DNA of 27,137 nucleotides, taken from a virus. The position numbers were made by a program, and so were the translations under genes. The stretch spans positions 1 through 27,137 of IMG/VR virus record IMGVR_UViG_3300010413_000161; one strand, 5' to 3'. Of the stretch, positions 15,912-26,899 are shown piece by piece. How positions within the stretch are numbered: the stretch's first letter is position 1; each line of letters starts with the position of its first letter. A model generated the notes under the pieces. It ran no database searches, was not told the origin of the DNA, and saw nothing but the letters and a program-made list of their open reading frames with translations.

Positions 15912-16733
15912 ATGAGCCAGGAAAGAATTAACTGTCCATGGTGTTATGATGGGCGATATCCTTTGAGTCTTAGCATTAACCGAGAAAAAGGCGTGTTCTA
16001 TTGCTGGCGTAGATCATGCGGCAAAAAAGGTCCAGTATCACTACTACAAAACGGGGCCTTTAGAGAAGAGATTTCTGAAATACTAGAGAAAGTTACCCCT
16101 GAAGGAAGATCTCCTATTCTGGAAGCAATTTGGAGGCATTCTGAGGGGGTTTTGAAGGATAATTCTACCCCTTTGCTCGAGTTTCCCCCAGGAATCCTAA
16201 AAATTAAACCAAAAATGACGGCATGGAAATACCTCAAGAGCCGGAGGATTGACCCCGTTCCCCTCCAACCTTTTGTCCTACAGAATAACAACTACCTCAT
16301 GTTCCCAATCTACAAGGGATCCAATCTAGTTTACTACGTGCAGAGAAAGATGTACGGGGCTGGACCTAGATACAAGAATGCCAAGACCCCAGGTCGATAC
16401 ATTTTTGTTCCATATCAAATGGCCAAGAAGGAATATTCCCATTTGATAATTGTCGAAGGAGTGTTTGATGCCATCAACATCTGGCAGAAATTAAAAATAC
16501 CAGTGATAGCTGTACTGGGGGCTACTTATGGAAGTTGGAAGGTGACCAGCATTCTGGAGTACATTGCACCAGGTTGTAAGGCAATAGTATGGGCTGATCC
16601 CAATTCGTTTAAGGAACCAATCCAATTCGCCCGTGCACTTGAACCCTTTTGTAAAAGCGTAAAGGTAATTTACCCAAGGAAAAAGGATCCAGGTGAAATG
16701 AATCTAGGTGAACTAAGGAAAGCTTATGAATGA
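15912..16733 (+). CDS. TOPRIM DNA primase (DnaG-like), 273 aa
   Basis: Makes RNA primers for the lagging strand. The N-terminal zinc ribbon has C8, C11, C31 and C36 (CPWC...YCWRRSC), the counterpart of the DnaG zinc domain. A linker to about residue 100 leads to the catalytic core. TOPRIM motifs are LIIVEGVFDA (Glu182), IVWADPN (Asp229, with Asn231 where Asp is usual) and KKDPGEM (258-263). At 273 residues it is shorter than bacterial DnaG and lacks its helicase-binding C-terminal domain, as in several phages that pair a short primase with a separate helicase. GGAGGATAAGGG precedes the start, and the stop overlaps the helicase start by 8 bases. This region is noticeably AT-richer than its neighbours. 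Confidence 0.85.
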   Translation: MSQERINCPWCYDGRYPLSLSINREKGVFYCWRRSCGKKGPVSLLQNGAFREEISEILEKVTPEGRSPILEAIWRHSEGVLKDNSTPLLEFPPGILKIKPKMTAWKYLKSRRIDPVPLQPFVLQNNNYLMFPIYKGSNLVYYVQRKMYGAGPRYKNAKTPGRYIFVPYQMAKKEYSHLIIVEGVFDAINIWQKLKIPVIAVLGATYGSWKVTSILEYIAPGCKAIVWADPNSFKEPIQFARALEPFCKSVKVIYPRKKDPGEMNLGELRKAYE

Positions 16734-17970
16734 AAGTAAGATTGTAGGTCTGTTAAGAACAGCTTCTTACTTTAGAAGATTTGGCTTTCAAATAGACGAA
16801 AGCTTCTTTACTTTAGCTGAAGCAGGTAAGCTGTTTACTTATGTAAAGGAGTATTTTGACAAGTACCCAGACAAAGATTTCATATCGCTTAAAAACTTAC
16901 GCCTTTTAGTAAAGGAGAAAGGTGAAGAGCGTAAGCTGATTTTAAAGCTTATCCCTAAGTTAAAGGTAAAAGGCTACGATGAACAAGTCATCATTGAGGA
17001 TCTTAAAAGATTCATCCAAGATGGAATTATCAGATCCTCACTTATGGATAACCTAGCAGCCATCGAGGGACGCTGTGACTTTGATATTGACGGACTCCGC
17101 AAGGCACTTGACAAAGCTGAAGAACTGGATATCAGTGAAGATATATACAACTATGGGGAAGAGACTATATCATTTCACTACGATGAGGCCAGGATTGCGG
17201 GCGAGCCTATCAAGACGGGAGTTGCGAGACTTGATGATATACTACCTTGGGCCCCCACCAGAAAAGAGATGTGGGTTATCCTTGCACCCCCGGGAAGAGG
17301 GAAGACCCAGTGGATGTTAAACATGCTAGCTAACGCGGCTATGGCAGGGCACACTGGATTATATATAACCTGTGGAGATCAAGGGCGGATCGATGTCCAG
17401 CTGAGGATCGATACCATCGTCTCCGAGATCCCCTACTGGAGATTGATCGGGCCAACTAATAATGCCATGGGACTCCTGGCTAAGAGGATAAAGGCCAGGA
17501 TGCTAAAGAAAGGGGGTAACATATTCATAAAGGACTGGAGTGATACTTCGGCTACACCAGGACAGGTGGAGAACCTCGTGAGGTCAATGAATCCAATGCC
17601 GGATATAGTAGCAGTGGACTATCCAGATATCATGAGGCCGGGCCGGGCATTAAGGTACTCGGAGAAGAGACATGAAATCGGAGGGATCTTTGCGGAGCTG
17701 CGTAGGATCGCCCGCCGGAACGACTTCCTGTTATGGTCCGGGAGCCAGGCAAACCGGGACGCTATTAACCGGAAGAATGTAAGCCTGGAGAACTTGGCCG
17801 AAGACATTACCAAGGCATGGACGGCCGATGGAATCATCGGCTATTGTCAGACACCCGAAGAGAAGGAGGAAGGTATGGGACGGGCGTTCCTGGCCAAGGC
17901 TAGAAGGCCGGGGATAAAACTATACGTCGCAGAATTTAGTGTCGACTATGACACGGGGAGGATAGTGTGA
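16726..17970 (+). CDS. Replicative DNA helicase, DnaB/RecA-fold, 414 aa
   Basis: Unwinds the fork as a hexamer. The N-terminal 150 residues are helical, as in DnaB-type N domains. The RecA core has Walker A APPGRGKT (187-194), then 'GLYITCGDQGRIDVQLRIDTI' (motif H1a region), Walker B PDIVAVDYPDIM (292-303) and 'FLLWSGSQANRDA' (about 334-346, the H3-like sensor). A 'KAWTADGIIGY' segment and a final 'KARRPGIKLYVAEFSVDYDTGRI' fit H4 and the core's last strands. In DnaB the Glu after strand 1 is in 'SLEM'; here the position reads 'TCGDQ', a divergence shared by some phage helicases. It overlaps the primase upstream and the TS-like gene downstream (GTGA). Confidence 0.88.
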   Translation: MNESKIVGLLRTASYFRRFGFQIDESFFTLAEAGKLFTYVKEYFDKYPDKDFISLKNLRLLVKEKGEERKLILKLIPKLKVKGYDEQVIIEDLKRFIQDGIIRSSLMDNLAAIEGRCDFDIDGLRKALDKAEELDISEDIYNYGEETISFHYDEARIAGEPIKTGVARLDDILPWAPTRKEMWVILAPPGRGKTQWMLNMLANAAMAGHTGLYITCGDQGRIDVQLRIDTIVSEIPYWRLIGPTNNAMGLLAKRIKARMLKKGGNIFIKDWSDTSATPGQVENLVRSMNPMPDIVAVDYPDIMRPGRALRYSEKRHEIGGIFAELRRIARRNDFLLWSGSQANRDAINRKNVSLENLAEDITKAWTADGIIGYCQTPEEKEEGMGRAFLAKARRPGIKLYVAEFSVDYDTGRIV

Positions 17971-18656
17971 GAATCTATCAGAACTTCACGGAGATGCACT
18001 CCGAGGTTGGTCGGGATCTTGTGGAGCTGGGTACCGAGGTTCCATCCCACTCGGTCCAGGCTTTCAAGGTACGGGAAGATCCAAACTTCGACATGAAGGA
18101 GATCATCGGCTATGCCTACCGTCTAGATGGATGGCATGACACAGCGGACTGCCTCTCATCTGAAGAATGGTGCTACACGGCAAGAGAACATGCACATCGG
18201 ATGTCGAATTCTTGGCTCAACCCTGGCGAGGCATGGCAGTCCAGAATGGATCTATGGGAGCCGATGTTAAACCAGGATGGTGAATTTGACTATACCTACA
18301 ACGAGAGGATCCGCGTCCAGCTGGATCGGATCTACAAGGAACTTCTCCGACGTCCCAATACCAGGCAGGCGGTCTTGACTATCTATGACAAGGAAGATCA
18401 ACGAGGGTTCGGGGGGAAGTTCAGAGTACCATGCTCACTGCACTACCAGTTCCTTGTCCGGAAGAAGCGGCTGCACATGATCTATTCCATGAGGAGCTGT
18501 GACTACTTCGCCCACTTCAAGGTGGATGTAGCCCTGGCTATTGAGTTCCTCTGCTATATGGCAGATATACTGGGGGTTGCGTATGGAACTTTCACCCACT
18601 TCATCGGGAGCCTTCACTGCTTCAGAAAGGACTGGGAGAGTGCTGGTATATTCTAG
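17967..18656 (+). CDS. Thymidylate-synthase-fold enzyme with Asp at the dUMP-selecting position, 229 aa
   Basis: GTG start overlapping the helicase stop, with GGGGAGG upstream. The C-terminal half aligns without gaps to E. coli ThyA at a constant offset of 10: catalytic Cys156 (VPCSLHYQF; ThyA C146), Arg176 and Asp179 (MRSCD; R166, D169), Asp187 (FKVDVA; N177) and His217 (GSLHCF; H207). 'YNERIRVQLDRIYKELLRRPNTRQA' is the expected preceding helix. ThyA has Asn at 177. Asp there is the feature of T4 dCMP hydroxymethylase, and N-to-D mutants of thymidylate synthase prefer dCMP. I therefore infer a deoxycytidylate methylase or hydroxymethylase rather than a plain ThyA. The protein ends soon after the His, lacking about 45 residues of the usual C-terminus. 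Confidence 0.8.
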   Translation: MRIYQNFTEMHSEVGRDLVELGTEVPSHSVQAFKVREDPNFDMKEIIGYAYRLDGWHDTADCLSSEEWCYTAREHAHRMSNSWLNPGEAWQSRMDLWEPMLNQDGEFDYTYNERIRVQLDRIYKELLRRPNTRQAVLTIYDKEDQRGFGGKFRVPCSLHYQFLVRKKRLHMIYSMRSCDYFAHFKVDVALAIEFLCYMADILGVAYGTFTHFIGSLHCFRKDWESAGIF

Positions 18657-19437
18657 CAAGAAGAAGGGCCTGAAGAAGGAGTACATCGCTTTCATCAAGT
18701 GGTTACACTCCAATCGGACCAGCAACATAAGCATCGAGTCCGGGAACAGGAAGGTGTTTGAGAACCTGGTCTGGGATGTCAACGACTTCTTTAGTCCGGG
18801 CCCAACACTAGAGGATCTGGGGTATGCCCCGGTGAAGATGACTCAGCTGAAGAAGATCTATGAAGACCAGGTACTACTGGGAGAGGCGAAGGAGGTGTTA
18901 AAGAAACAATGGGACAAGACAAGGAAGGGCGGCCGAAGGTATGTTTCAGCAAGTCTATCTTTTGTGACTGGGACAAAAGGGAGCGTTATGGGAGGGCGGC
19001 TGAAAAGTTATTGTATGACCTCTGCGGTCTATATGTTGAACGAGACTGGGGGAAAGATGGTGGTGTTCTACAGGACGACGGAGGCGGTAAAGAAATTCGG
19101 GGCAGACTTGTTATTTCTACAGAACACTTTCAGACGGTACATTCCTTCACAGCTACTCCGCCAGATCCGGACTGTCCGGTTCTACTTTACCCAACTTTAC
19201 ATAGCCTCCATCTATTACCCACTGGCCTACACTTTTGGGGTAAGGGTGCCCCGCCAGAAAAGCAAGTGCAGTTCTGGTTTTCACCGGAGGTGTCACCGCG
19301 ACCTAGAAAGGGCAGACGATCCTGCGACTGTAGCCCTCTACGCCCAGACTGAAAGGTCGTACAGGAGGTACAAGGCATGGAAGTTGGAAAAGGAACACGC
19401 TCGTTCTGCAAGAAAGAAACCTACTGGCAGATGCTAG
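18640..19437 (+). CDS. Divergent second thymidylate-synthase-fold protein, 265 aa
   Basis: I use the GTG at 18640 (AAGGACTGGGAGA upstream), which overlaps the previous gene by 17 bases. By eye it is a distant relative of its neighbour: Cys125 (KSYCMTSAVY), Arg145 and Glu148 (YRTTE) and Asp156 (FGADLL) have the same spacings (20, 3 and 8 residues) as Cys156, Arg176, Asp179 and Asp187 there, and both sit in 'strand-strand-RS/TxD/E-helix' context. The His expected later is missing; the stretch reads 'FYFTQLYIASIYYP'. The C-terminal 60 residues are basic (SSGFHRRCHRDLERADDPAT). It could be a catalytic partner, an enzyme on another pyrimidine, or an inactive scaffold subunit. The family is not certain. 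Confidence 0.6.
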   Translation: MLVYSSKKKGLKKEYIAFIKWLHSNRTSNISIESGNRKVFENLVWDVNDFFSPGPTLEDLGYAPVKMTQLKKIYEDQVLLGEAKEVLKKQWDKTRKGGRRYVSASLSFVTGTKGSVMGGRLKSYCMTSAVYMLNETGGKMVVFYRTTEAVKKFGADLLFLQNTFRRYIPSQLLRQIRTVRFYFTQLYIASIYYPLAYTFGVRVPRQKSKCSSGFHRRCHRDLERADDPATVALYAQTERSYRRYKAWKLEKEHARSARKKPTGRC

Positions 19438-19664: not shown

Positions 19665-19725
19665 AATCATTGGGTTGACATTGGTAGTCCTGGTCTTAAT
19701 CATCATAGCAGGGGGAAGATCATGA
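19654..19725 (+). CDS. Tiny single-pass membrane peptide, 23 aa
   Basis: AAGGGAGATAG-ATG gives MTSEIIGLTLVVLVLIIIAG and GRS, then TGA overlapping the next ATG as ATGA. Nearly the whole product is one membrane helix (residues 5-19). Its start overlaps the preceding gene by 11 bases. It is either a real membrane microprotein or a coupling leader for dCMP deaminase. A consensus TTGACA lies inside it (19675-19680), but no good -10 follows at the right distance. Confidence 0.5.
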   Translation: MTSEIIGLTLVVLVLIIIAGGRS

Positions 19726-20201
19726 GACTTTCAAGGGAAGAATATTACTTCAAGGTAGTTATGGCCGTGGCCGAACGAAGTACCTGTGACCGCGGTAAAG
19801 TCGGGGCGATCCTGGTAAAGGACGGAAGGATTATCTCAACCGGGTACGCGGGGGCACCGGCAGGAATGCCTCACTGTGACGAGGTGGGCCATGAGTTTCA
19901 GAAGAGGCGGATGGCACATGGCATGAAGTTTGAGTCCAAGCATTGTATTCGTACTGTCCACGCTGAGCTGAACGCCATACTCCAGGCGGCCAAGTTTGGA
20001 GTAGCCGTAAACGGGGCAGACCTCTACTGCAAGGTGTTCCCTTGTTATGACTGTGCTAAAGCTATTGTTAACGTTGGTATAAAGAAAGTTTATGCCTGGT
20101 TTGCCTATCAGCAGATGGATGCCCCGGCTAACCTGTTGGTAGACGCCGGGATAGACTTCAAGGTGATGGATCATGGATCTGTGGAAGAACCTTCGGAATA
20201 G
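19722..20201 (+). CDS. dCMP deaminase, 159 aa
   Basis: Converts dCMP to dUMP, the precursor for thymidylate or hydroxymethyl-dUMP. Zinc and catalytic residues are intact: HAELNAI (His80, Glu82 as proton shuttle) and PCYDC (Cys108, Cys111). The substrate loop 'GYAGAPAGMPHCDEVGHE' matches the 'GYNG.P.G..HCD..G' of phage T4 and Bacillus dCMP deaminases. 'TCDRGKVGAILVKDGRIISTGY' is the standard N-terminal strand pair. Length is typical. It is coupled by ATGA to the membrane peptide upstream and overlaps the polymerase start by 29 bases, so its product is made together with the replication enzymes. T4-type enzymes are allosterically set by dCTP/dTTP; whether that holds here cannot be read. Confidence 0.92.
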   Translation: MRLSREEYYFKVVMAVAERSTCDRGKVGAILVKDGRIISTGYAGAPAGMPHCDEVGHEFQKRRMAHGMKFESKHCIRTVHAELNAILQAAKFGVAVNGADLYCKVFPCYDCAKAIVNVGIKKVYAWFAYQQMDAPANLLVDAGIDFKVMDHGSVEEPSE

Positions 20202-22653
20202 GTATTGCAAGAACTGTAGGCTATCAAAGACGGCCAGGAACCCCTGCCTCATAGGAGATGGGGACATGAACAAGGGGGTTGTGATTATAGGTGAAGCTCC
20301 TGGTGAGAGAGAAGATGACATACGAAAACCATTCGCAGGCCGGGCTGGCAAGATGTTGGATAAAATTATAGCAGCCATTGGATGGGAGCGAGAGGATTTC
20401 TATATTACCAACGCCTGTAAGTGTAGGCCCCCAGATAATGAGACACCCTCTATCCAAGAGATTCGGGCCTGCCGCGAGTATCTAATAGAAGAAATTGAGG
20501 AACTCAACCCCCGAATTGTAATATGTTTGGGGGCTGTCGCAGCTAAAAGCGTAGTTAATTCTAATCAAATGTCAGTTAAAACCGGCCGCAAAACGGAGAT
20601 CCGCTTTCAAGAATTTCCAGACCTACCAGTGTTCGTTACCTATCACACTAGCTACGCCTTACGTACTCCAGCAGCTGAACAAACAATTAGGGAAGATCTG
20701 GAAAGATTTCTAGGTATCAACAAGCCGCGTAAAAGGAAGGCAAGGTACGAGTTGATATTAGATCCCGGTCTTGCGGCTGACATTGCTAGCGATTTTCTAA
20801 AACATGGACGCGGCTCGTTAGACTTTGAGACTTCAGGACTAGATACCTACGACGCAGACTTCTTCATTGTATCTATGGCTTTATCTCGGAGGCCGGGCAG
20901 AGCTTATGCCTTCGATAAAAAGCTATGGCCCGCAGTTCTTGAGGCTATCAATAGGCCAGGGTTCACTGCCCGGATCCAGAATGCTAAGTATGAGCTCCAT
21001 TGTATGAGGGCCTATACCATTAGGTGGAGAGGCGGGCTAGAGGATAACCTGATTGAACTCCACCTTCTGAATGAGAACGAACCCAGCAAGGATCTCCATA
21101 CCCAAAAGAGGAAGCACACGGACCTGGGGGAACGGGAAGAAGAGATCGCCCCTTACAAGGGACAGATGCCATCCCTGCCTATCGAAGTTGTGGCCTCGTA
21201 TAACTGTGAGGATGTGGATGCTACCGAGAGGTTGCGGAAGATATACCGGCCTCAGATCAAGAAGCAAAAGCTGGAGCCACTCCTGGACCTCGAGCTTGCC
21301 TCGACCCGGATGCTGGTAGACGTGGAACAGAACGGGGTGAACCTTGACCGGGAACTCTTGGATCAGAACATAGAATTATTTGGAGCGGCCCTTGAAGCTA
21401 TTGAGTCCATGTTCCCCGGAATAAACCTCAACTCAGGTGACCAGCTGGCAGACTATCTGTACCGAGATCTCGGGATGCGGGTGTTGGAACGGACCCCAAA
21501 GAAGGACATCGGGTCGGTGAAGGCTGAGGTCTTGGACCAGCTGAAGGGAACGGTAAAGGGTTATAATCATAGGCAAAAGCTGGACTGGATCATATGCTAC
21601 AAGAAGATCCGTCACTTCAACTCTCACTTTCTGTCGGGCCTGGAGAGACATATCAAGCAGGACGGACTCTTGCACCCAAGGTATAACCTGATCAAGCATG
21701 AGGATCCAGAGAAGGGGAAAGAGGTCGGTACGGTTACGGGCCGCCTGTCCTGTACGGATCCGAACCTCCAACAGATTCCCAGAGATACTACCGAGCTGGA
21801 CGATGTCTTCAGGAAGGTTGCGGCCGAGTTCCCGGAGGTTGAGGCCCTGCTCCCAGAGTCCGGCGCTCCACAGATCAAGGAGATGTTTGTATCCAGGTGG
21901 AAGGGTGGATGTATAACCCAGGTGGACTATTCCCAGATCGAGCTAAGACTCATGGCCGAGTATTCTGGGGATCGGAATATGCTTCGGGACTTTGACTCGG
22001 GGGTTGATATCCATGACGCCGTCACAAAGAGAATGTATAAGGTTGCAAAGAATCTTTACGTTAGAAGATTTGGCGAGGACTTTGCTGCTGCCAGAAAGTT
22101 TACCAAGTCAGTCAACTTCGGTATCATATATCTTATATCTGCTTGGGCTCTGGGCGAGAGATTGGAGATCGGCACGAAGGCTGCAGAGAATGTTATCAGA
22201 GCATGGTTTAGTATTTACCCCGATGTAAGGAAGTGGATCCGACATAAGCAGGGAATGATATCCAGGACAAAGGAAAGCAAGAGCCTGATTGGTCGGATCC
22301 GTCGGCTGCCCGGCGCTGGTTTTGGGGATTCAACAGGGAGAGAACAACTCAGGCAGGGTGTTAACTCCCCCATCCAGGGGTTGGCCGCGGATCTGACCAA
22401 GATGGCCATGATAGAAACGAACTCAGTGATGGAACAAGAAGGAGCGCAGAGCTTGCTGATCGGAAACGTACACGATGCCTCGCTGTTTGACACGTACCCG
22501 GGTGAAGAGAAATACCTGGCCCAGTCCGTGCGGAGGATCTATGTCAAGCCGGCCCTACTAGATAATCTCTTTGGGGTGAGGTTTCGTGTACCAATTGAGG
22601 TTGATATTTTACAGAATCCCAGCTGGTCGAAAGGAGGTGGAAAAAAGTTGTAG
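20173..22653 (+). CDS. Uracil-DNA glycosylase / DNA polymerase I fusion, 826 aa
   Basis: Three modules. Residues 1-180 are a family 4 (Fe-S) uracil-DNA glycosylase: C12 and C15, GEAPGERED (40-48), PFAGRAGKML, KCRPP (C84), C100 and TYHTSYALR (His158), enough for the 4Fe-4S cluster and active site. Residues 190-370 are a 3'-5' exonuclease: DFE (217-219), NAKYE (270-274, Glu where Asp is usual) and YNCED (343-347). Residues 390-826 are a family A polymerase: motif A DYSQIELR (585-592), O-helix Arg641/Lys645/Phe649/Tyr653 in RKFTKSVNFGIIY, motif C VHDA (766-769, Ala instead of the usual Glu). The 5'-nuclease domain is absent. It can thus polymerise, proofread and excise uracil. SPO1-type polymerases also carry an N-terminal UDG-like domain. 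Confidence 0.9.
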   Translation: MDLWKNLRNRYCKNCRLSKTARNPCLIGDGDMNKGVVIIGEAPGEREDDIRKPFAGRAGKMLDKIIAAIGWEREDFYITNACKCRPPDNETPSIQEIRACREYLIEEIEELNPRIVICLGAVAAKSVVNSNQMSVKTGRKTEIRFQEFPDLPVFVTYHTSYALRTPAAEQTIREDLERFLGINKPRKRKARYELILDPGLAADIASDFLKHGRGSLDFETSGLDTYDADFFIVSMALSRRPGRAYAFDKKLWPAVLEAINRPGFTARIQNAKYELHCMRAYTIRWRGGLEDNLIELHLLNENEPSKDLHTQKRKHTDLGEREEEIAPYKGQMPSLPIEVVASYNCEDVDATERLRKIYRPQIKKQKLEPLLDLELASTRMLVDVEQNGVNLDRELLDQNIELFGAALEAIESMFPGINLNSGDQLADYLYRDLGMRVLERTPKKDIGSVKAEVLDQLKGTVKGYNHRQKLDWIICYKKIRHFNSHFLSGLERHIKQDGLLHPRYNLIKHEDPEKGKEVGTVTGRLSCTDPNLQQIPRDTTELDDVFRKVAAEFPEVEALLPESGAPQIKEMFVSRWKGGCITQVDYSQIELRLMAEYSGDRNMLRDFDSGVDIHDAVTKRMYKVAKNLYVRRFGEDFAAARKFTKSVNFGIIYLISAWALGERLEIGTKAAENVIRAWFSIYPDVRKWIRHKQGMISRTKESKSLIGRIRRLPGAGFGDSTGREQLRQGVNSPIQGLAADLTKMAMIETNSVMEQEGAQSLLIGNVHDASLFDTYPGEEKYLAQSVRRIYVKPALLDNLFGVRFRVPIEVDILQNPSWSKGGGKKL

Positions 22654-22740: not shown

Positions 22741-23505
22741 ATGGCAAAGAAAGGATACCACCCGGCCAGTAAGACTTATGCAAAACAGCTGGCCGAGGAA
22801 TTAGGTGGAGGTGAATGGTGGGATCCAAAGGTAGGAGAAAAGGAACAGTTCAGAGTGTTCCCTGCCTGGGATGAGCGAGGAATCTGTATAATCCGCCGGA
22901 TCTTACACTATGGATTTGAAGTTGACGGCCGGCGCCGAGCATTCCCATGCCTAGAAGACAATGCCACCTGGCTTACCCCTGTCCCATGCCCAACCTGCTA
23001 TGTCGTGGCAAGGCTTTTGGAAGGGGATGAGGACGAAAGAAAGATTGGAAAAGACTTACAAGCTGGGGGGGCAAAGTTTGTTGTCAAAGGTGTCGACTGC
23101 AAGAAGAAACAGGTAGCCAAGTGGGCGGCCCCATTCTCATTTGGGAAATACTTTCTGGCCCTCTTGGAAGACAAAGACATCGATGACCCTACCCACCCAT
23201 TGAAGGGGTTCGACATTTACGTCGAGCGGTCCGGAAAAGGCCGGGGGACCAAGTACGATTATCGGATGCGCCCGAAATCTACGCCGATCCCCATCAAGAA
23301 GTGGGAGAAACACCTGGAGGATCTTACCAAAACCATGGAGGTACTGAGTCCAAAGAAAATGATCTCCCTGCTCGAGGACAACTATGGAAATGTTCTCGAC
23401 CTGGATGGTCTGTTAAAGGGATTCAAAGTCTCCAAGGAAAAAACAAAAACCGGGAAGGCCGGGAAGACGGCCAGACCAAAAAGGAAACGGAGGAAGAAGC
23501 GATGA
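22741..23505 (+). CDS. gp32-like single-stranded DNA-binding protein with basic tail, 254 aa
   Basis: I start at MAKKGYHPASKTYAKQLAEE, preceded by AAGGAGG; an in-frame ATG at 22678 lies on the promoter -10 and cannot be used from that promoter. The core has a metal site in T4 gp32 style: His in ILHYGF, then FPC, then CPTC (H-x13-C-x12-C-x2-C). An OB-like stretch 'KWAAPFSFGKYFLALLEDKD', 'GFDIYVERSGKGRGTKYDYRM' follows. The role is to coat ssDNA at the fork. Oddly, the C-terminus is very basic (GKAGKTARPKRKRRKKR), whereas SSBs normally end acidic. The acidic part seems to be supplied by the next, ATGA-coupled gene. Confidence 0.75.
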   Translation: MAKKGYHPASKTYAKQLAEELGGGEWWDPKVGEKEQFRVFPAWDERGICIIRRILHYGFEVDGRRRAFPCLEDNATWLTPVPCPTCYVVARLLEGDEDERKIGKDLQAGGAKFVVKGVDCKKKQVAKWAAPFSFGKYFLALLEDKDIDDPTHPLKGFDIYVERSGKGRGTKYDYRMRPKSTPIPIKKWEKHLEDLTKTMEVLSPKKMISLLEDNYGNVLDLDGLLKGFKVSKEKTKTGKAGKTARPKRKRRKKR

Positions 23506-24017
23506 CAATTGATTTCAATGAACTAAGTGTGCCGACCTTGATGGGAATCGTGGAGGATCTGGAGTTGGAAATTGACCCCTTTGAGTGTGAGGATGATGAT
23601 GACCTTACTAACAAAGTCATCGAGGCACTCGGAGGGAAAGCTGAGGGGGAAGAAGAAGAAGAGGAAGCCGGTGATCTTCCCACAGCAGAAGAGATCAATG
23701 CCATGAAGTCCAAGGAACTCCGTGAGTTGATCGAGGACCACGAGCTGGATCTCGAAGTCGACGACAAAGTCAAGGTCAAGAAGCTTCGCAAGTTGGTGAT
23801 CGAAGCCATCGAAGCCATGGGCGGCGAAGAAGAGGAAGAGGAAGAGGAAGAGGAAGCCGCCTACACCTTGGACCAGATCAATGAGATGAAGAAGAAACAG
23901 CTGCTCGCCCTCATCGAAGAAGAAGAACTGGAGATTGACGATGAGGACTGGGACAACGTGAAAGAACTCCGTCAGCTGGTCATCGAAGAACTTGATCTGG
24001 ATGAAGAGGACGACTAA
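23502..24017 (+). CDS. Acidic protein with three HeH/SAP-like helical repeats, 171 aa
   Basis: ATGA overlap with the SSB gene fixes the start (MTIDFNELSVPTLMGIVEDL). Three repeats of about 40-45 residues are visible at 4-44, 60-107 and 121-164, with the pattern 'IN.MK.K.L..LIE..EL.(I/L).....LR.LVIE.I', which resembles helix-extension-helix or SAP-type small nucleic-acid-binding domains. They are joined by Glu runs (up to ten in a row), and the end is DLDEEDD. The net charge is very negative. I infer that it pairs with the basic tail of the SSB, acting like a detached acidic SSB tail that recruits replication proteins. The repeat fold call is by eye. Confidence 0.7.
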   Translation: MTIDFNELSVPTLMGIVEDLELEIDPFECEDDDDLTNKVIEALGGKAEGEEEEEEAGDLPTAEEINAMKSKELRELIEDHELDLEVDDKVKVKKLRKLVIEAIEAMGGEEEEEEEEEEAAYTLDQINEMKKKQLLALIEEEELEIDDEDWDNVKELRQLVIEELDLDEEDD

Positions 24018-25061: not shown

Positions 25062-25596
25062 GAAGAAGGGAAAGAAAAGGACTGGAGCCCTGTCTCCAAC
25101 AACGAGGATAAGAATATTTCCCGGGTATAACGTTTTCTGCCGTGACTGCGAAGCTTTTATTCCTTTTACTGAGGACGGAGAGCCGGTAAGAAATGACGAT
25201 GGGAAAATAGTAGGACGGTGTCATGGAGCCTGGCCCATGTGGACGTTTGGAGTTAATGAGATTACGAGAAGGATCTCTGGAGAATGGGCCTGGCCGGCGC
25301 TTCCTGAGGACGGGTTTTGTTGGCAGATAAAGATTTCAAACGTAGCAGTAGATCGGTTACGACAACGACAGGAGGCCATGGATGGTAAACATAAAGGAGA
25401 TGGAGGAAACGATGGATCAGATTCTGGAGGAGGACAGTCTATTCCGGATGATGGATCGCCAGAAGGAGCTGATGGAGAAGTACCACCAGATAGAAAAGGA
25501 GACTCAACCGTGTGTGGTACCGAGCCAGGTTCCAGTGAGCCTGAACAGCCGGGAGGGACAGCACCAGATAAAGCAGAGGATCCATTGGTGCATTGA
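25051..25596 (+). CDS. Zinc-binding protein with overprinted acidic tail, 181 aa
   Basis: GGAGGTGATAG-ATG start, overlapping the nuclease stop. The first 110 residues look genuine: MSSKKKGKKRTGALSPTTRI, then FCRDCEAF, GRCHGAWPM and GFCWQI, four cysteines for one zinc site, as in small phage zinc proteins ending '(D)GFCxQ'. From about residue 111 the product becomes Gly/Asp/Ser/Pro-rich, and these 70 codons lie on top of the dUTPase-like gene in another frame. Either the tail is a true disordered acidic extension, or the authentic protein was once shorter and its stop has been lost. Function unknown; DNA or RNA contact is plausible from the ribbon and basic N-terminus. Confidence 0.65.
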   Translation: MSSKKKGKKRTGALSPTTRIRIFPGYNVFCRDCEAFIPFTEDGEPVRNDDGKIVGRCHGAWPMWTFGVNEITRRISGEWAWPALPEDGFCWQIKISNVAVDRLRQRQEAMDGKHKGDGGNDGSDSGGGQSIPDDGSPEGADGEVPPDRKGDSTVCGTEPGSSEPEQPGGTAPDKAEDPLVH

Positions 25597-25810
25597 GGAA
25601 CTAGCCGAGGCCATGGGAACTTTAAAGAATCGGCCTTGGAAACAAACCATGATGGAGACTGACGAGGACCATTTCAAAGAAGAGATGGCCGATGCTTTAC
25701 ATTTCTTTCTGGAGGCTTGTATCTTGGCTGGGATCTCGGCGTTGGAACTTGCCAACCTTTACTTCCGCAAGTCAGAGGTAAACAGGTTCAGGCAAAGGAG
25801 TAATTACTAA
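25382..25810 (+). CDS. All-alpha NTP pyrophosphatase, dUTPase/dCTPase-like, 142 aa
   Basis: AGGAGG lies before the ATG; a second in-frame ATG ten codons later also has GGAGG. The helical core has the metal-binding acidic pairs 'IEELAEAM' (E-x2-E) and 'FKEEMADALHFF' (E-x2-D), plus 'NRPWKQ' between them and the end 'LYFRKSEVNRFRQRSNY', which matches the 'Y..KNEVNRFRQRSGY' end of type 2 dUTPases and T4 gp56-type dCTPase. It hydrolyses a dNTP to dNMP and pyrophosphate. dUTP or dCTP is the likely substrate, and dCTPase would fit with a dCMP-modifying enzyme. The choice cannot be made from sequence. The 5' part overlaps 215 bases of the zinc protein frame. Confidence 0.8.
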   Translation: MVNIKEMEETMDQILEEDSLFRMMDRQKELMEKYHQIEKETQPCVVPSQVPVSLNSREGQHQIKQRIHWCIEELAEAMGTLKNRPWKQTMMETDEDHFKEEMADALHFFLEACILAGISALELANLYFRKSEVNRFRQRSNY

Positions 25811-26322
25811 TGAACCTGGTGGCAATAGACGCTGGATGGAACGGCGCCGTGGCCTGGATGGTTAGACGTGAAGGGAAACGGACTATCATTCGAGCCCGGC
25901 GCTGTCCAGGAGATGTTCATGAAATGTACCGACTATTACGAAATCTTGTTGATCGGTATCGGGGAGAGTGGCGAGGAATTATTGAGGCAAACCACGCTTC
26001 TCCACAGTTCGGTGCTAGGGGCAACTTTGGGCTTGGCCTCAATATTGGGTCTTGGGAAGGTGCTTTCGCTGCCGTTGATATCCCGTGTGAAGTTATCAAC
26101 CCGCGGACCTGGCAAAAAATCACGTCGAATACCCGTAGCCGATCTAAGAAGGGAACTGCTGCGCGAAAAGAAAAGGCATGGCGATATGCCAGAACCATGT
26201 ATCCAGCCTTTCGGGGACGTCTTGGTGATACACCTCCCTCGAAGACGAACTGGAGACAAGGTATAGCCGATGCGCTCTGCATCTTAGAATATGCAAGGAG
26301 ATTCTATGGGCAAGAAGCTTGA
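25810..26322 (+). CDS. RuvC-like Holliday-junction resolvase, 170 aa
   Basis: TAATG overlap with the previous stop. The RNase H-fold acidic residues are in the right places: AIDAGWNGAVA (Asp7), GIIEANHASPQ (Glu59) and GIADALCILEYARR (Asp154), with 'INPRTWQKI' between them as in phage RuvC proteins. It cuts four-way and branched DNA to free replicating concatemers for packaging and to complete recombination. The basic stretch 'TRSRSKKGTAARKEKAWRYA' probably contacts DNA. Only three of the usual four acidic residues are obvious; the fourth may be one of the residues near 150. It works downstream of polymerase, SSB and nuclease. Confidence 0.85.
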   Translation: MNLVAIDAGWNGAVAWMVRREGKRTIIRARRCPGDVHEMYRLLRNLVDRYRGEWRGIIEANHASPQFGARGNFGLGLNIGSWEGAFAAVDIPCEVINPRTWQKITSNTRSRSKKGTAARKEKAWRYARTMYPAFRGRLGDTPPSKTNWRQGIADALCILEYARRFYGQEA

Positions 26323-26899
26323 TTCAATAAGGCTGTTGTCGGACCTTGGATTCAATACCCCAGAGTTCATAGTGGTCCATGACGAAGATTCATTGTACGT
26401 TTACGAGCAGATGGCGGTCAGCTGGCCCAGGGTATCAATCCGAACAGACACAAAAAATTCTAATCATCCTCTCGTCTTGGGTAAACTTCCCTTCTTCCCC
26501 AACATACTGGCAGCAGAGGCCATGGAAAAGCTGAAGGGCCTATTAAGTGAGGGGCTACTAGGTATAGTCCAGAAGGCCATAGACCCGAAGGACTCTGAGC
26601 TTGGTGGGAAGTATATGCGGGTGGCCAAGGATAGTACGGAGTTTGTAGAATACTTCCTGGGTCCAGGAACTATCCGTCAGATGGAAAGTGATGAGGTCAG
26701 GAGACATGCAGTTCACTGGCTGCACGGAAAGGTGGACTGGGAAACCGTTCCAAAAGGACACGGCGGGTATATCTATATATTCCAAAAGGTCCGAAGACAG
26801 GCCACCATTCTTAGGCCCCCATTCTGTCTGGAGTTTTCAAAGTATCCCTATCGAATCGGACGAATGAAAGAGCAGATAATCTTCTGGGAGGTGTGCTAG
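26306..26899 (+). CDS. Unassigned protein, possible ATP-grasp-like fold, 197 aa
   Basis: Start at MGKKLDSIRLLSDLGFNTPE (AAGGAGATTCT upstream), overlapping RuvC by 17 bases. Visible phrases are 'FNTPEFIVVHDEDSL', 'WPRVSIRTDTKNSNHP', 'LLGIVQKAIDPKDSELGGKYMR' and 'EFVEYFLGPGTIRQM'. A 'P.FIVV...SIRT......GI.Q..ID......G......E...GPGT.R' order recalls the N-terminal nucleotide-binding half of ATP-grasp or PEP-synthase-like enzymes and some phage proteins of that kind. I cannot place a full catalytic set, so this is a weak resemblance. It may modify a small molecule or nucleotide; function open. Confidence 0.6.
   Translation: MGKKLDSIRLLSDLGFNTPEFIVVHDEDSLYVYEQMAVSWPRVSIRTDTKNSNHPLVLGKLPFFPNILAAEAMEKLKGLLSEGLLGIVQKAIDPKDSELGGKYMRVAKDSTEFVEYFLGPGTIRQMESDEVRRHAVHWLHGKVDWETVPKGHGGYIYIFQKVRRQATILRPPFCLEFSKYPYRIGRMKEQIIFWEVC

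Follow-up and report, generated by a model that had tools for sequence, protein, structure and literature searches.

Phages use modified bases to protect their DNA, and enzymes of the thymidylate synthase (TS) family are a main source of these. Within this family, replacement of Asn by Asp at position 177 is the classical switch from deoxyuridine monophosphate (dUMP) to deoxycytidine monophosphate (dCMP) as the substrate. Here, we discuss two adjacent genes, further called TS1 and TS2, on a stretch of viral DNA of 27,137 nucleotides (IMG/VR virus record IMGVR_UViG_3300010413_000161, positions 1 to 27,137; called the window below). The pair is conserved and widespread in phages. Many bacterial viruses carry such a combination of a cytosine-type TS relative with a shortened partner of the same fold, and together the two would probably make a modified cytosine for the viral DNA.

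Several related systems have been described. A structure of the ternary complex of the dCMP hydroxymethylase (dCH) of phage T4 revealed a hydroxymethylase signature consisting of an Asp or Glu three residues before the catalytic Cys (Cys-3) and a Ser or Thr two residues before the catalytic Tyr (PMC6400193). TS enzymes are dimers, in which phosphate-binding arginines are donated across the interface, i.e., Arg123 and Arg124 in T4 dCH (PMC6400193). Also 5-hydroxy-dCMP synthases are known members of the TS superfamily (PMC13390438). Furthermore, in the MetaGPA study, TS homologues from cytosine-modified viral contigs were found to have a changed residue 147 together with Asp177, which was enriched in these contigs (PMC8670742).

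In the window, the pair is encoded as follows:

17967..18656, + strand: TS1, 229 amino acids, thymidylate-synthase family, GTG start (PF00303, E 1.5e-13)
18640..19437, + strand: TS2, 265 amino acids, TS-fold protein, best start GTG at 18640 (fold match; phrog_34294)

The coordinates and residue numbers of both proteins in the original prediction, which had described two tandem TS-fold proteins with Asp at the substrate-selecting position, were correct. Two outcomes that would have spoken against this prediction did not occur: TS2 is predicted to adopt a TS fold, and the aligned homologues of TS1 carry Asp, not Asn. TS1 belongs to the TS superfamily, as is evident from its match to PF00303 and from Z-scores of 20-23 with TS-family structures. 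Its closest solved relative, both by sequence (E 4.6e-12; profile E 2.8e-16) and by fold, is AfhB; the AlphaFold2 model (predicted local distance difference test, pLDDT, 94.0; predicted template modeling score, pTM, 0.91) matched the structures 9iqc and 9iqu with Z-scores of 22.9 and 22.6, respectively, followed by MilA (21.7) and ThyA enzymes (~20). When its profile was aligned globally with T4 gp42 and the Huwbert phage ThyA, Cys156 (codon TGC at 18432-18434), Arg176, Asp179 and His217 of TS1 fall on Cys146, Arg166, Asp169 and His207 of ThyA, and Asp187 (codon GAT at 18525-18527) falls on Asn177, which bears out the constant offset of 10 noticed earlier. Among 51 aligned TS1 sequences, to which all counts for this protein refer, these five residues are invariant, as are Arg133 (at the Arg126 site), Arg153 and His183. 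Hence, Asn177, which confers dUMP specificity on ThyA, is replaced by Asp in every aligned TS1, even though many homologues are annotated as thymidylate synthase. Also absent is the C-terminal tail that closes the folate site in ThyA, as TS1 stops 12 residues past His217. The site of residue 147 is occupied by Ser or Thr.

The Asp at the 177 site, the catalytic Cys and the His207 equivalent, present in all 51 sequences, are traits of T4-type dCMP hydroxymethylases. However, the signature of these enzymes is missing. At Cys-3, where T4 has Asp145, all TS1 sequences have Arg153, and position 109, two residues before Tyr111, is His in 42 and Tyr in nine of them, instead of Ser (Ser94-Tyr96 in T4). 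Because of these substitutions in all 51 sequences, TS1 is not to be filed as a T4-type hydroxymethylase. The likeness to the T4 enzyme that had been drawn from the Asp thus stands for that residue but does not make TS1 a plain T4-type enzyme. Use of folate by TS1 seems the likelier option, because the Asp of the pterin site is kept in TS1 and is absent in AfhB. Position 74 (codon GAA at 18186-18188), which is located in a helix, is strictly Glu in one group, the clade of the window (9/9), and strictly His in the main clade (42/42), a split that possibly reflects a difference in cofactor or reaction. Position 77 is acidic in most sequences and His in the window.

TS2 is far more divergent. Searches with its sequence alone were unproductive in the PDB, in NCBIfam and in Pfam, where no family was matched at the cut-off. 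In PHROGs, weak matches were found to phrog_34294, which is matched by 46 of 54 aligned homologues, and the versions from actinophages matched PHROG 13667; the function of both families is unannotated. Nevertheless, the AlphaFold2 model (pLDDT 92.9, pTM 0.89) assigns TS2 a TS fold with high confidence. Foldseek returned the TS superfamily (E 9e-7), to which the chains of all 22 matches with E < 0.001 belong, and the best VIA fold match was again AfhB (Z 14.2 over 189 residues at 4.0 Å), followed by MilA (12.6), T4 dCH (10.4) and ThyA enzymes (~10). Lys66, Tyr74, Cys125, Arg145, Glu148, Lys152, Phe153, Ala155 and Asp156 are invariant in the 54 homologues, on which all residue counts for TS2 are based. 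They include the catalytic set of TS and dCH enzymes, with Cys125 (codon TGT at 19012-19014), Arg145 and Asp156 (codon GAC at 19105-19107) as the equivalents of Cys146, Arg166 and Asp/Asn177. In the model, Cys125, Arg145, Glu148 and Asp156 are located on the same strand, strand and helix as their equivalents in TS1. Even in the actinophage versions, with a very different overall sequence, the Cys, an Arg ~20 residues later and an Asp 11 residues further can be read from the sequence.

A comparison of the TS2 and TS1 profiles with hhalign was weak (probability 2%, E 0.021), although the correct Cys, Arg and Asp were aligned; therefore, the homology rests on the fold and the conserved residues. 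The Cys-20-Arg-3-acid-8-Asp spacing, on which the original prediction had relied, is weak on its own, but its invariance in all 54 homologues, the placement of the residues in the model and the fold matches within the TS superfamily show that it is not due to chance. In the alignment, no conserved His was found as an equivalent of His207, and no conserved Glu at the positions where Glu58 is expected from the match of Lys66 and Leu70; the Arg126 site also lacks a conserved Arg. The absence of the His had already been noticed, and TS2 had been called degenerate. This label is misleading, because an invariant Cys/Arg/Asp set is kept and the losses mainly concern the folate-side features and the His. 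Hence, TS2 is not decaying, but has retained the pyrimidine-nucleotide side of the site while losing the folate side.

Relatives of TS2 were collected by tblastn in phage records, which gave 18 of them, and by a profile scan of viral and bacterial contigs, which gave 67 loci in viral and two in bacterial contigs. A TS1 gene is located nearby on the same strand in the viral contigs, in the two bacterial contigs and in 10 sequenced phages, with as the only exceptions three loci (L021, L024 and L048) where the contig ends beside TS2. Over all loci, 146 TS2-like open reading frames (ORFs) were found, all on the strand of TS1; the gap between the two genes has a median of 0 nucleotides, and 142 of the ORFs lie within 1.5 kb. 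Conserved gene adjacency, proposed as a check, is thus almost absolute. TS2 comes first in 91 loci and TS1 in 12, including the window; the adjacency has therefore outlasted a change of gene order. In the actinophages Huwbert, Gibbous, NoShow, Zuko, Cozz and Shrew, the gene just 5' of the annotated thymidylate synthase is labeled "hypothetical protein," and an iterated TS2 profile matches all six of these genes with E-values of 6e-30 to 5e-45. The pair occurs in phages of Pseudomonas, Serratia, Yersinia, Brevundimonas, Gordonia, Mycobacterium, Microbacterium, Streptomyces and Curtobacterium. In agreement with the earlier impression that such a pair is not a known one, no published description of it was found in the literature searched. 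The label "pyrimidine hmase (synthase)" is attached to TS2 or TS1 in two metagenomic records and in Yersinia phage P744, so some annotators have noticed the resemblance.

Two or three TS2-like ORFs accompany a single TS1 in 14 loci; such paralogues are found in gut and Pseudomonas phages (L014:3182-5781, L015:4000-5767, L016:3260-5099, L012:7651-8217 and L097). A fused TS1-TS2 ORF was not found in any of the loci. One locus (L140:4001-5947) contains a 648-codon ORF with a TS1 match plus extra sequence, and a second TS1-like ORF at 1941-2873.

TS1 is not invariably accompanied by TS2. Among 163 TS1 loci, 131 have TS2, 17 have a gene resembling those for C5-cytosine methyltransferases, and 15 have neither in the stretch examined, whilst none has both (hypergeometric probability 1.2e-14 for zero overlap, with relatedness ignored). 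The methyltransferase-like gene mostly occupies the upstream slot of TS2. Five representatives of its product match PF00145 with E-values of 5.7e-18 to 9.7e-31, and the alignment shows the motif IV Cys and a QxxRxR-type motif. Searches of the whole records of the 32 loci without TS2 recovered TS2 in only two. Mapping of the methyltransferase label onto the TS1 tree requires five changes, three of which are forced by well-supported branches; therefore, the exchange took place repeatedly, but in far fewer than 17 separate events. An asparagine-synthase/glutamine amidotransferase (GATase)-like gene is present in 14 of the loci without TS2, 12 of which also have the methyltransferase-like gene, and in none of the loci with TS2. 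Examples of TS1 loci with the methyltransferase-like gene, often together with the asparagine-synthase/GATase-like gene, are L093:571-4693, L095, L098, L101, L109, L120, L147, L155 and L157. Possibly, these two genes constitute a second, alternative cytosine-modification module.

C5-cytosine methyltransferases act through a covalent adduct between a Cys and C6 of the base. The presence of a member of this family in the slot of TS2 thus points to a catalytic role for TS2. We tentatively favor, at somewhat below an even chance, the view that TS1 and TS2 are the two enzymes of a conserved system by which dCMP is turned into a deoxycytidine nucleotide modified at C5, destined for phage DNA, with TS2 using the product of TS1 as its substrate. 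The substrate, cofactor and product of such a system and the catalytic role of TS2 we infer as follows. By the mechanism of the family, Cys156 of TS1 would add to C6 of dCMP, with the cytosine being read by Asp187, and a one-carbon unit, probably from methylene-tetrahydrofolate, would be transferred to C5. TS2 would then re-add its own Cys to C6 of this product, thereby activating the substituent at C5 so that it can be replaced or react further. The product of TS1 is its most likely substrate, since TS2 has kept Cys125, Arg145 and Asp156 and has lost the folate-side and His features. Finally, the nearby kinase, MazG-like pyrophosphatase, dCMP deaminase and polymerase would serve to build the modified triphosphate and to clear competing deoxycytidine triphosphate (dCTP). 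A bolder version has TS2 as a new, folate-free TS-fold enzyme that forms a Cys-C6 adduct with the C5-modified dCMP and puts a different nucleophile in place of the C5 substituent, resulting in cytosine hypermodification, with the same step being carried out elsewhere by the methyltransferase-like protein together with the asparagine-synthase-like gene. This version is possible, but doubtful.

The pair had originally been suspected to be either a heteromeric or a two-step enzyme. If TS1 and TS2 belonged to a single heteromeric enzyme that modifies dCMP, TS2 would replace one protomer of the TS dimer, and the active sites would be shared across the interface. This is what one might expect from the cross-interface donation of arginines in TS dimers (PMC6400193), from the overlap and constant adjacency of the genes, and from the occurrence of TS2 without TS1 at contig ends only. 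Moreover, the presence of Arg133 in all TS1 sequences, with no conserved Arg at this site in TS2, is an asymmetry expected of specialized subunits. However, a folate-competent site in TS1 would lose the arginine of its partner in a 1:1 dimer, the genes are nowhere fused, and 32 TS1 loci have no detectable TS2 next to TS1. In addition, the presence of two or three TS2 copies per TS1 in 14 loci argues against a fixed 1:1 complex. A single heteromeric enzyme is the main rival of the two-step view, but appears less likely. Of the two options raised originally, the two-step one fits better than a strict heterodimer because of the substitution, in 17 loci, by a methyltransferase-like protein from a family with the same adduct chemistry and because of the variable copy number of TS2. 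The pair might also make a base derived from 5-hydroxycytosine instead of a one-carbon-modified one, with TS1 being a variant, flavin-dependent 5-hydroxy-dCMP synthase of the AfhB type. Such synthases exist in the superfamily (PMC13390438), and for both proteins no solved structure is closer than that of AfhB. Yet, the identity between TS1 and AfhB is only ~23%, Cys-3 is Glu in AfhB and Arg in TS1, and the pterin-site Asp169 equivalent that is kept in all TS1 sequences is Asn in AfhB, which makes this option unlikely.

Alternatively, TS2 may be a non-catalytic regulator or nucleotide sensor, with control over TS1 or the pool enzymes being exerted through binding of a cytidine nucleotide. Its lack of a His207 equivalent and of a conserved Glu58 candidate and its more distant fold match (Z 14.2 vs. 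22.9) would agree with such a function, but a pure sensor does not need a Cys at the nucleophile position, which is invariant in all 54 homologues and is found in the actinophages as well, and a methyltransferase-like protein would be an odd replacement for a sensor. We consider such a role improbable. An ordinary thymidylate synthase with a decayed duplicate, as the annotation of many TS1 homologues would have it, is hardly credible, considering the Asp at position 177 in every aligned TS1 and the constant retention of TS2 with invariant active-site residues. Moreover, ThyX is encoded in 13 of 49 pair-bearing records (in 11 of them above the curated cut-off), and phage Huwbert has a canonical ThyA with Asn177 directly after TS1, so that separate ThyX or ThyA genes occur in about a quarter of the records. 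Thus, the pair is not the sole source of thymidine monophosphate (dTMP) and not simply a dTMP synthase. With Asp177 and these other enzymes, dTMP synthesis was rejected as the role of the pair.

Several points weigh against the two-step view that we favor. The overlapping start and constant adjacency of the genes would suit a complex equally. The published hydroxymethylase signature is missing in TS1, which makes its own product uncertain, and AfhB is described with flavin adenine dinucleotide (FAD), so that folate use is not certain either. The Glu58 equivalent of TS1 cannot be placed by alignment: position 74 differs between the clades, and the mostly acidic position 77 is His in the window. 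The methyltransferase-like gene may encode an ordinary DNA methylase, and its mutual exclusion with TS2 may partly reflect lineage. Furthermore, no activity, structure or base analysis was found in the literature for any pair-bearing phage, and the papers on two of these phages, P744 and Polewnik, contain nothing on base modification.

In the window, the pair is embedded in a replication block on the plus strand, in the order primase, DnaB-like helicase, TS1, TS2, an ORF of 95 amino acids, dCMP deaminase and a fusion of a uracil-glycosylase domain with a family A DNA polymerase (PolA). The pair is accompanied by the following genes:

15912..16733, + strand: DNA primase-like protein (phrog_47, E 3.8e-26)
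16726..17970, + strand: DnaB-like replicative helicase, directly 5' of TS1 (PF03796, E 1.4e-10; phrog_19, E 3.7e-54)
19722..20201, + strand: dCMP deaminase, 159 amino acids (PF00383, E 4.2e-25; phrog_174, E 3.1e-43)
20173..22653, + strand: family A DNA polymerase, 826 amino acids, with N-terminal uracil-DNA-glycosylase-superfamily domain (PF03167, E 6.6e-36, residues 28-172; PF00476, E 1.6e-73, residues 415-819)
25382..25810, + strand: MazG/dUTPase-like nucleotide pyrophosphohydrolase, 142 amino acids, candidate enzyme for clearing dCTP or deoxyuridine triphosphate (phrog_12184, E 3.6e-34)

The helicase and TS1 genes overlap by 4 nucleotides (GTGA) and the TS1 and TS2 genes by 17, an arrangement that looks as in a translationally coupled operon. 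Similar neighbors are common elsewhere: of 104 paired loci, 98 contain PolA, 72 a deoxynucleoside monophosphate (dNMP) kinase cluster and 62 dCMP deaminase. In Gordonia phages (L171:4750-5514 and L174:4929-5768), a gene annotated as lysin B is located between those for TS1 and dCMP deaminase, which is an odd site for a lysis gene. The fusion of PolA with an N-terminal uracil-DNA-glycosylase-superfamily domain is, judged by sequence, shared by a relative (L004:2600-5131). Elsewhere in the window, positions 23301-24017 encode a protein rich in Glu, in which internal repeats of ~50 residues end in acidic runs, and the ORF at 26291-26899 (202 amino acids), located after a RuvC-like resolvase, matches nothing in Pfam, PHROGs or NCBIfam.

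With the unannotated second TS-fold protein as a marker, a large set of culturable phages with predicted cytosine modification can be recognized; among those that carry the pair are the Gordonia phages Cozz and Gibbous, Mycobacterium smegmatis phage NoShow, Pseudomonas phage PMBT14 and Serratia phage Serbin. The exchange of TS2 for the methyltransferase-like protein suggests that two unrelated folds perform the same step. If true, this would represent a new route of base hypermodification, from which enzymes acting on cytosine nucleotides might be obtained.

How does the pair compare with the described systems? With ThyA, TS1 shares the fold and the equivalents of Cys146, Arg166, Asp169, His207 and Arg126, but it has Asp for Asn177 and no C-terminal tail, and TS2 has lost more. 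MilA, a cytidine monophosphate (CMP) 5-hydroxymethylase from antibiotic biosynthesis, is the next-best fold match after AfhB for both proteins, but it acts on CMP, and a TS2-like partner was not found in the searches made. AfhB, the dCMP hydroxylase of phage HY126, has a TS fold, a Cys nucleophile, Asp at the 177 site and dCMP as its substrate. However, its identity to TS2 is only 9%, and it is described with FAD in the PDB titles, which name no TS2-like partner. The differences between AfhB and TS1 at the Asp169 site (Asn vs. Asp179) and at Cys-3 (Glu vs. Arg153) concern sites that are not established as markers of the AfhB family. The TS homologues of the MetaGPA study resemble TS1 in Asp177, in the altered residue 147 and in co-occurring genes for PRA-PH/MazG-like proteins and dCMP deaminase; in the excerpted text, carbamoyltransferases are reported as their partners and a second TS-fold protein is not mentioned (PMC8670742). 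The DNA of Stenotrophomonas phage AXL3 resists enzymes that cut at G/C-containing sites (PMC7504290). As a characterized case of the pair, this phage was rejected: in its TS, Asp is present not only at the 177 site but also at Cys-3, and no match to TS2 or to the methyltransferase-like protein was found, making it a T4-type contrast. T4 itself has no TS2, and its gp42 differs from TS1 by an acidic residue instead of Arg at Cys-3 and by Ser94 instead of His or Tyr, but it shares with TS1 the Asp at the 177 site, the Cys and the Arg166 and His207 equivalents. T4 also has a dCTPase, a dNMP kinase and a dCMP deaminase, like the surroundings of the pair, and by this analogy the pool-enzyme neighbors of TS1 and TS2 would resemble the logic of T4, i.e., to clear dCTP and to build a modified dCTP.

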